A stretch of DNA of 64,000 bases. It comes from Histomonas meleagridis (Eukaryota; Parabasalia; Tritrichomonadida; Dientamoebidae). The stretch is taken from assembly GCA_020186115.1 (NCBI GenBank), contig WSYJ01000149.1:744001-808000 (forward strand). Reading direction: 5' to 3'. Numbering within the stretch: the first letter of the stretch is position 1; each line of letters begins with the position of its first letter. Positions 53,287 through 54,579 of this stretch are shown here, in pieces. The notes below the pieces were generated by a model. The model saw nothing but the letters and a program-made list of their open reading frames with translations, was not told the origin of the DNA and did not search any database. The translations under genes and the position numbers were made by a program.

Positions 53287-54579
53287 TTTTGCTGGATTAG
53301 TTTAACTATTTCTGTGTAACCTTTCGAAGATGCATATTTAAGTGCATTATAAAATAATTTAAATAAATTCCAAATATTATTTTGAAATATTAAAATATTA
53401 ACATGAACCCATAATTAAATAAGTAAATATTTTTAGCATTAATATCAATTCCCTTTTGTTCAAGAAGTAATTTAACAATATTTGTGTAACCATTTTCTGA
53501 TGCATACATGAGTGCTGTTTTATATAATTTAAATAAATTGTAAATATTATTTTGAAATAAAAAGTTGTTAGAATAAATTTCATATTAAACAAATAAACAT
53601 CTCTAGCATTAATATTAATTCCCTTTTGTTCGAGAAGTATCTGAACTATCTTATCATAACCGAATTGAGCTGCCAAAATAAGCGCTGTATTAAATGATAT
53701 TAATAAATTCCTAATATTATTTTGAAATTTCATATAATTTAAGTGAATAAAAAATAAAACAAATAAAAACTTTTAGCATTATAAACAATTCCTTTTTGCT
53801 CAAGAAGTAATTTAACAATCTCAAATTTACCTCTTCGCGATGCAAATATAAGTGCTGTGTTAAAAATTTTAAACAATTTCCAAATATTATTATCAAATCC
53901 AAAATTGTTTGATGAAATTTGAAATTAAACAATCAAAAATTTCGTGCATTAATATCAATTTTTTTTTGTTTAATAAGTAATTCAACAATTTCTATGTATC
54001 CTTTTTCAGCTGCAATCATTAGAGCTGTTTGAAATAAATTAAATATTTTTGAAATATTATTTCAAAATGTCAAATTATTCAAATCAACTTTAAATTAAAC
54101 AAATAAAAATTTTGAGCATTAATATCAATACCGTTTTGTTCAAGAAGCAATTTAACTATTTCAATATGGTTTTTATAAGAAGCGTCAATAAGTGCTGTAA
54201 AACATGTTTTAAATAATTTCCAAACATTGCTATGAAATGCTAAATTATTTAAACCAATTTTAAATCAAACAAATAAAAATTTTGAGCATTAACATCAATA
54301 CCGTTTTGTTCAAGAAGCAATTTAACTATTTCAATATGGTTTTTATAAGAAGCGTCAATAAGTGCTGTGCAAAATAGTTTGAATAATTTCCAAATATTAT
54401 TTGAATATATCAAATTAATCAAATAAAGCCCATACAAAACAAATATATATTTTTAGCATTGATATTAATTCCTTCTTGTTTAAGAAGGATTTCAACAATT
54501 TTAGTGTTACCATCACTAGATGCCCAAACAAGTGCTGCGTCAAATATTTAAAATAATTTCCAAATATTATTTTGAAGTA
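53287..54579 (-). repeat. Ankyrin array of exact 170-bp units (8 units)
   Basis: On the minus strand the TAL position recurs at plus-strand coordinates 54530, 54360, 54190, 54020, 53850, 53680, 53510 and 53340: seven intervals, all exactly 170 bp. All cores are open: AALVWASSDGNTKIVEILL, TALIDASYKNHIEIVKLLL (twice, nearly identical units), TALMIAAEKGYIEIVELLI, TALIFASRRGKFEIVKLLL, TALILAAQFGYDKIVQILL, TALMYASENGYTNIVKLLL and a final short [19 protein letters not shown] ending at a stop. The 68-nt spacers carry stops and a one-base frame offset each time. The array follows the DUF3447 gene at 54580-55803 without a gap. Confidence 0.9.

Follow-up and report, generated by a model that had tools for sequence, protein, structure and literature searches.

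Thousands of ankyrin coding blocks in the poultry parasite Histomonas meleagridis appear to be separated by short non-coding inserts of nearly fixed length that lack the usual intron borders

A 170-bp ankyrin array and its genome-wide family

The window analysed here is a stretch of 64,000 nt of the Histomonas meleagridis genome (C84:744001-808000). On its minus strand, eight TAL-type starts (54538, 54368, 54198, 54028, 53858, 53688, 53518, and 53348) are spaced by exactly 170 bp, seven times, and TRF independently placed a 170-bp array at 53352-54648. The eight units and their seven equal intervals had already been described in a first-pass annotation of this DNA, in which the absolute positions were off by 8. 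The motif scan listed six of the eight starts; it missed the first, which has GCA in place of ACA, and the last, which has AAT. That annotation was also right that 170 is not a multiple of three: 170 mod 3 is 2, the neighbouring units are mutually out of frame, and several spacers contain stops. An open reading frame (ORF) of 407 codons at 55803-54580 (minus strand), in which Pfam recognised DUF3447 and ankyrin repeats, precedes the array and extends into its first spacer. Read as a single interrupted gene, the locus would comprise the following features.

54616..55803, minus strand: first exon, from the ATG to codon 30 of the last ankyrin repeat, about 396 codons; the listed ORF continues to 54580; Pfam DUF3447 and Ank
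54545..54615, minus strand: spacer 1, 71 nt, boundary within a few nt; identity to the consensus 0.82 (locus L001)
54446..54544, minus strand: ankyrin exon 2, 99 nt, no stop
54375..54445, minus strand: spacer 2, from the sequence
54276..54374, minus strand: ankyrin exon 3, from the sequence, the motif scan, and the stop count
54205..54275, minus strand: spacer 3, from the sequence
54106..54204, minus strand: ankyrin exon 4, very close to exon 3 (recent duplication), included in the stop count
54035..54105, minus strand: spacer 4, from the sequence
53936..54034, minus strand: ankyrin exon 5; the next codon (codon 31) is TGA, assigned to the spacer by the model
53865..53935, minus strand: spacer 5, from the sequence
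53766..53864, minus strand: ankyrin exon 6, from the sequence, the motif scan, and the stop count
53695..53765, minus strand: spacer 6, from the sequence
53596..53694, minus strand: ankyrin exon 7, from the sequence, the motif scan, and the stop count
53525..53595, minus strand: spacer 7, from the sequence
53426..53524, minus strand: ankyrin exon 8, the last core of the window listed in the stop count
53355..53425, minus strand: spacer 8, without the G of the common TTGTTT
53280..53354, minus strand: last exon, half an ankyrin repeat; 22 residues, then a natural stop TAA (53280-53282)

The family was searched in 43,276,120 bases in 121 contigs (the assembly table of PMC8529796 gives 187 contigs for the virulent H. 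meleagridis assembly). A 35-nt junction pattern, made of the spacer end plus TAL and allowing up to three mismatches, gave 2,231 + 2,200 = 4,431 matches in these 43.3 Mb, against none genome-wide for the reversed pattern, and the array pattern is therefore far from chance. The spacer end alone gave 1,956 + 2,010 = 3,966 matches and its control none. At 170 bp each, 4,431 units amount to about 750 kb, or 1.7% of the genome. With the 1,241-base target array as a query, at least 131 genome matches were obtained, the best full-length ones being 74-79% identical, self excluded; with the first-exon ORF, 102 matches were scored among 5,713 candidates (56-65% identity, self excluded), of which 80 had no stop in the matched part and 22 had one. 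Among viral contigs, there were no hits by DNA pattern and none confirmed by protein.

The median spacer was 93% identical to the consensus (313 units) across this genome-wide family, which supports the homogenisation proposed earlier. The exact unit length noted at the target array did not extend to the whole family: among 386 sampled units, the distance to the next core was 170 bp in 313, 153 bp in 27, and other values in the rest.

Further 170-bp ankyrin arrays, which the first-pass annotation had suggested looking for, are also present in the window itself, where TRF reported three (16210-17248, 22673-23128, and 58089-58429). The region 15099-17400 (plus strand) holds a second interrupted ankyrin gene, with an ORF at 15099-16265 followed by seven detected units with stop-free internal exons. 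A third, short array at 22581-23128 (plus strand) has three detected units spaced 150 and 170 bp. In the fourth, at 57651-58429 (plus strand), an ORF of 237 codons crosses an in-frame 54-nt spacer and ends in the following spacer, which is of the 71-nt class.

Coding signatures of cores and spacers

Two sets of units were used: a first set of 240 different units of 170 bp, drawn from 30 overlapping loci, and a larger one of 425 distinct units from 36 loci. For 313 units of the larger set, the next interval is 170 bp. Units were chosen by score, so that decayed ones may be missed, and recent duplicates were counted separately. In codons 0-30 (the T of TAL being 0), the 313 units contained two stops, against about 100 (79.0 + 19.0 + 2.0) expected from the spacer substitution spectrum; codon 11 falls in two of the three groups of this expectation and contributes no expected stop. 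At hypervariable codons 4 and 7, one and zero stops were found in 240 units, against 50.1 and 54.8 expected if the three positions vary independently. The codon before TAL (nt 167-169) had none, against 32.6 expected, in 409 of the 425 units, the 16 without a recognisable spacer end having been dropped; it encodes N (99), K (76), E (70), R (48), Y (27), D (25), W (23), Q (17), and others. Genome-wide, codon 20 of the core reads TAA at 4 places and CAA at 2,072, and in the spacers C to T is the faster change (0.080, compared with 0.054 for T to A or G together).

Stops were also counted by array, in 25 arrays of at least three units (L031-L050 and those of the window; L031 is of the spacer-free kind). 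Internal exons were stop-free in 257 of 259 cases, and 23 arrays, one of them with 43 units, had no internal stop at all; the two exons with stops count against the interrupted-gene reading.

The comparison of substitutions between cores and spacers, which had been proposed as a check, was also made. In the conserved core codons, non-synonymous changes reached 0.48 and synonymous changes 0.81 of the spacer-spectrum expectation, and at codons 4, 7, 8, and 10 non-synonymous changes reached 3.2 of the expectation. These four codons and the one before TAL correspond to what we take to be ankyrin positions 5, 10, 13, 14, and 16, largely on the ligand-facing side. Mean entropy was 0.438 in the spacer, 0.394, 0.391, and 0.223 at third, first, and second codon positions, and 1.236 at the hypervariable codons. 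Core indels were mainly of +3 and +6, with two of +1 near codons 28-29, both in L045, which count against the interrupted-gene reading. Taken as patterns in DNA, these data show that the ankyrin cores are translated and diversified at codons that lie, by ankyrin numbering, largely on the ligand-facing side.

The spacers behave differently. In the upstream frame, stops occurred at codon 31 in 12 units (5 loci), at codon 32 in 9 (6 loci), and at codon 34 in 18 (5 loci) of 313 units; in the downstream frame, they occurred at codon -3 in 9 (4 loci), at codon -4 in 9 (7 loci), and at codon -8 in 43 (20 sources) of 409 units. Genome-wide, in the commonest context, codon 31 on the spacer side reads TAA or TAG at 68 places and TAT or TAC at 1,777, and a part of the 68 may mark genuine gene ends. 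Among the indels of the spacer are -20, -17, -1, +1, +2, +3, and +20. Since stops and odd-length indels are tolerated and variability is close to that of third codon positions, the same kind of data show that the spacers are not translated.

The 153-bp class (27 units, e.g., in L040, L035, and L036) has a spacer 17 nt shorter, which is in frame (51 codons) and contains an in-frame stop in 16 units and none in 11. Read-through of some of these spacers could thus add a helix-like stretch to the protein, a point that counts against the interrupted-gene reading.

Neither folding nor covariation singled out a structure in the spacer. The mean folding z was +0.32 (60 units), and mutual information within the spacer suggested no stem: the strongest pairs were inside the codon before TAL or at most three positions apart, with a few weak long-range pairs of 0.12 bits or less. 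The first spacers (n = 23) were 65-97% identical to the internal consensus, the best conserved block being nt 144-157 (TTTGGAAATTATTT); they were picked by the 71-nt frame, and their constant length comes partly from this selection. We also considered the spacer as a dispersed mobile intron and rejected it: all eight spacer ends that were read (L051-L056, of 3,966) adjoin an ankyrin core, and the spacer thus seems bound to the repeat.

Restoration of the reading frame

The coding part of a unit ends at codon 30 or part-way through codon 31, and coding starts again somewhere in nt 164-167. A frame common to all the cores requires the omission of 71 or 74 nt from each unit, rather than of the 68 extra nt estimated in the first-pass annotation; we prefer 71. 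Upstream of 47 first cores, at least 60 open codons were found in 32 cases and fewer in 15. Among the 32, the offset fits a 71-nt spacer in 21, is in frame in 10 (including 54-nt spacers and old contiguous repeats), and is the third one in a single case. In 12 arrays, the open codons upstream in the 71-nt frame numbered 384-450 in six, 66-182 in three, and almost none in three; L040 and L046 have 321 and 127 open codons in the frame of a 54-nt spacer and almost none in that of a 71-nt spacer. The last core runs 20-35 codons to a stop in nine of the 12 arrays, the exceptions being L039, L042, and L045. Because only 6 of 12 arrays have a long upstream ORF, 3 of 12 lack a clean last exon, and a stop interrupts 22 of the 102 matches to the first exon, some arrays look incomplete.

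The cores are translated, the spacers are not, and a common frame requires 71 or 74 nt to be left out; on these grounds, we propose that the array is probably the repeat part of one multi-exon gene, whose spacers would be left out as introns with non-canonical ends. Such a gene would open with an exon of about 400 codons, continue with ankyrin exons that hold one repeat each in 96-99 nt, and close with a short exon bearing a natural stop, while the spacers of 71 nt (possibly 74) would be absent from the final reading frame. Removal would take place on RNA, at borders of the type ..GAT ATT/TATTTG.....AAATTA/TTT xxx ACA GCA CTT (slashes marking the borders). The non-canonical RNA processing suggested by the first-pass annotation is thereby the best remaining explanation, and it is the removal step that we infer. 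Unit and spacer may multiply together by unequal exchange and conversion, as suggested by the near identity of neighbouring units, and the period would thereby stay at 170.

The cut could be made by the spliceosome or by another RNA-cutting route. A spliceosome is likely to be present, since PRP8, one of its core proteins, is encoded in the genome. With regard to spliceosomal GT-AG introns, the flanking exons do join in one frame, but the GT and AG ends are lacking: no conserved in-frame GT-AG pair was found in 313 units (donors at 75-115, acceptor ends at 145-174), and the only pair above 30%, at nt 98-173 in 75% of these units, is 76 nt long and breaks the frame. Removal by a route independent of GT-AG ends is therefore most likely. 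A local scan of the sampled loci for the canonical trichomonad intron motif gave one candidate (L035), with no clear coding frame. The 5' end of the first spacers is less conserved than their middle, which was counted against splicing.

The removal of the spacers from RNA has two weaker competitors, namely bypass by the ribosome and silent donor cassettes. Bypass elements, such as those of T4 gene 60 and the byps of Magnusiomyces mitochondria, are untranslated inserts in coding sequence whose length need not be a multiple of three, and the Histomonas spacers resemble them in both respects. The spacer would then be kept in the mRNA and the ribosome would hop about 65 nt, for example from TTG-TTT (nt 96-101) to TTA-TTT (nt 161-166). 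The near-identical hexamers TTGTTT and TTATTT do lie 65 nt apart in the consensus, so that the hop would restore the frame, and the absence of GT-AG ends also fits. Despite the hexamer match, the frame is not open up to the take-off site: the stops reported above at codons 31 and 32, and the 68 genome-wide at codon 31, precede it. Moreover, the spacers give no folding or hairpin signal, and, unlike the known elements, they are nuclear and present in far more copies. To our knowledge, nuclear genes with tens of ribosome hops are unprecedented, and we consider bypass unlikely.

The cores could also be silent donors, as in lamprey VLR and bacterial antigen cassettes: copied into expressed ankyrin genes, they would keep open frames in an array that is itself untranslated. 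Hypervariable codons within an otherwise homogenised unit, and the large number of tandem cassettes, are what this predicts. Against it, a first exon and, in the nine arrays mentioned, a last exon with a stop belong to the arrays themselves, and the existing contiguous repeats (L031 and L033) differ in sequence from the interrupted unit. Moreover, no expressed spacer-free acceptor with the same unit was found: the exact contiguous-junction pattern has one genome match, out of frame. That this pattern yielded no copy from which the spacer is precisely missing also counts against the intron reading. We regard donor cassettes as quite improbable. The single contiguous junction (G000:C86:303266-303293) looks like a deletion between two ATTT repeats.

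Satellite DNA, or a pseudogene array in decay that yields no protein, is very improbable. Thousands of homogenised tandem units would fit the former, and with it the satellite-like or nucleosomal role proposed at first pass, and the stops in 22 first-exon matches would fit decay; both are contradicted because the cores avoid stops and the spacers of the same units do not, which a satellite role alone leaves unexplained. Coding constraint is present, and stops have not accumulated in the coding parts as they have in the non-coding ones. Frame-skipping was also raised at first pass. A programmed frameshift of -1 (or +2) once per unit, which would make the spacer part of a translated 57-codon repeat, is scarcely credible: in the upstream frame the spacer of the consensus has no stop, and downstream-frame stops affect few units, but real spacers have a stop in 130 of 240 (upstream frame) and 60 of 240 (downstream frame), carry indels of +1, -1, and +2, and place the would-be slippery heptamer over a hypervariable codon.

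Homologous proteins and known systems

The structural model of the first-exon ORF (22-sequence alignment) has a mean pLDDT of 88.5 and a pTM of 0.87 and is almost wholly helical. The PDB matches with the best E-values (2e-4 and weaker) were ankyrin stacks and DARPins, with low query TM-scores of 0.21-0.39. The ankyrin assignment is given by Pfam and this model for the ORF and by sequence for the single cores. The ORF ends within a repeat stack, which is consistent with a continuation into the array. In repeat sequence and fold, the family is like DARPins and the trichomonad DUF3447/Ank proteins; unlike in these, every repeat in Histomonas forms a separate coding block, and an out-of-frame spacer comes after it. 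Its hypervariable positions include what we take to be repeat positions 5, 13, and 14, presumably the same as in DARPin libraries.

Of 26 homologous proteins found, 20 were read. P0006, P0007, P0008, P0009, P0010, P0012, P0014, and P0017 end directly after D-I, D-V, G-I, or N-I, as would be expected if codon 30 were followed by a stop; others continue for some residues. P0017, from H. meleagridis, terminates exactly where the first spacer would start. P0003 lacks the first spacer and has the junction N-V-M-F-E-S-A-L, with F preceding the variable residue. P0001-P0016, P0018, and P0021, from ENA contigs of about 1.3-6 kb, are relatives with 38-59% identity, many with a common end point, and their sequences suggest that the interrupted arrangement also occurs in other organisms or strains. 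Public records give the H. meleagridis family members P0017, P0019, and P0020 the name "cask-interacting protein (caskin) 1,2". No public protein with joined repeats of the interrupted family was recognised among the best 120 of 4,976 matches, six of which were read, and 146 motif-scanned proteins; the match list was taken up by common ankyrins, which makes this a weak test.

For Trichomonas vaginalis, PMC12316389 reports 63 active introns, with three ankyrin-domain genes among the carriers, and GT..AG ends with extended conserved motifs at both. The Histomonas spacers are likewise short, AT-rich, frame-restoring interruptions of coding sequence, but they have no conserved in-frame GT-AG, occur by the tens per gene, and are bound to one repeat; the strict 5' motifs reported in T. 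vaginalis also differ from the weakly conserved 5' end of the first spacers (PMC12316389). Euglenid nonconventional introns, which are described in PMC4770533 as having variable, non-canonical borders and a removal mechanism not yet known, share the non-canonical borders; in those introns, RNA secondary structure joins the ends, a signal that the Histomonas spacers do not show, and the borders and length of the latter are nearly constant (PMC4770533). Tunicates and diplonemids also depart from GT-AG on a large scale, in introns of many genes according to PMC13326754 and PMC12621601, whereas the Histomonas case concerns one family, in another lineage, known from DNA alone. In the open-access literature searched, no title or abstract start described such interrupted ankyrin arrays.

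In the accessible text on the H. meleagridis annotation, 573 introns are reported, with no gene having more than one, and ankyrin as a word is absent (PMC8529796); an ankyrin-domain protein is listed in a table of PMC10063853. Non-coding inserts that separate out-of-frame coding blocks must be left out for proteins to be made. If this happens on RNA, the number of introns would rise from the annotated 573 to thousands, with ends that are not GT-AG, and genes with up to tens of introns would exist in a genome reported to have no more than one per gene. Parabasalid splice-site recognition would become testable on thousands of natural variants, and a protein family with diversified binding surfaces, possibly shortened by annotation as the end of P0017 may indicate, would be uncovered. 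More tentatively, and as a possibility rather than an expectation, the spacers may represent a class of nuclear introns not recognised before, here in a parabasalid, numbering thousands, nearly fixed at 71 nt, without GT-AG and bound to a single repeat, and forming with their exons a fast-turning ligand-binding ankyrin repertoire. Even if the reading of RNA removal fails, stop-free coding blocks between out-of-frame spacers need explaining.

Two other tandem repeats were observed in the window. At 10564-11063, a 138-bp/69-bp repeat lies inside a 784-codon ORF (9421-11775, minus strand) and leaves its frame unbroken, and at 2093-2822 G-rich short repeats occur in a 557-codon ORF (1156-2829, minus strand), in a genome that is otherwise AT-rich.
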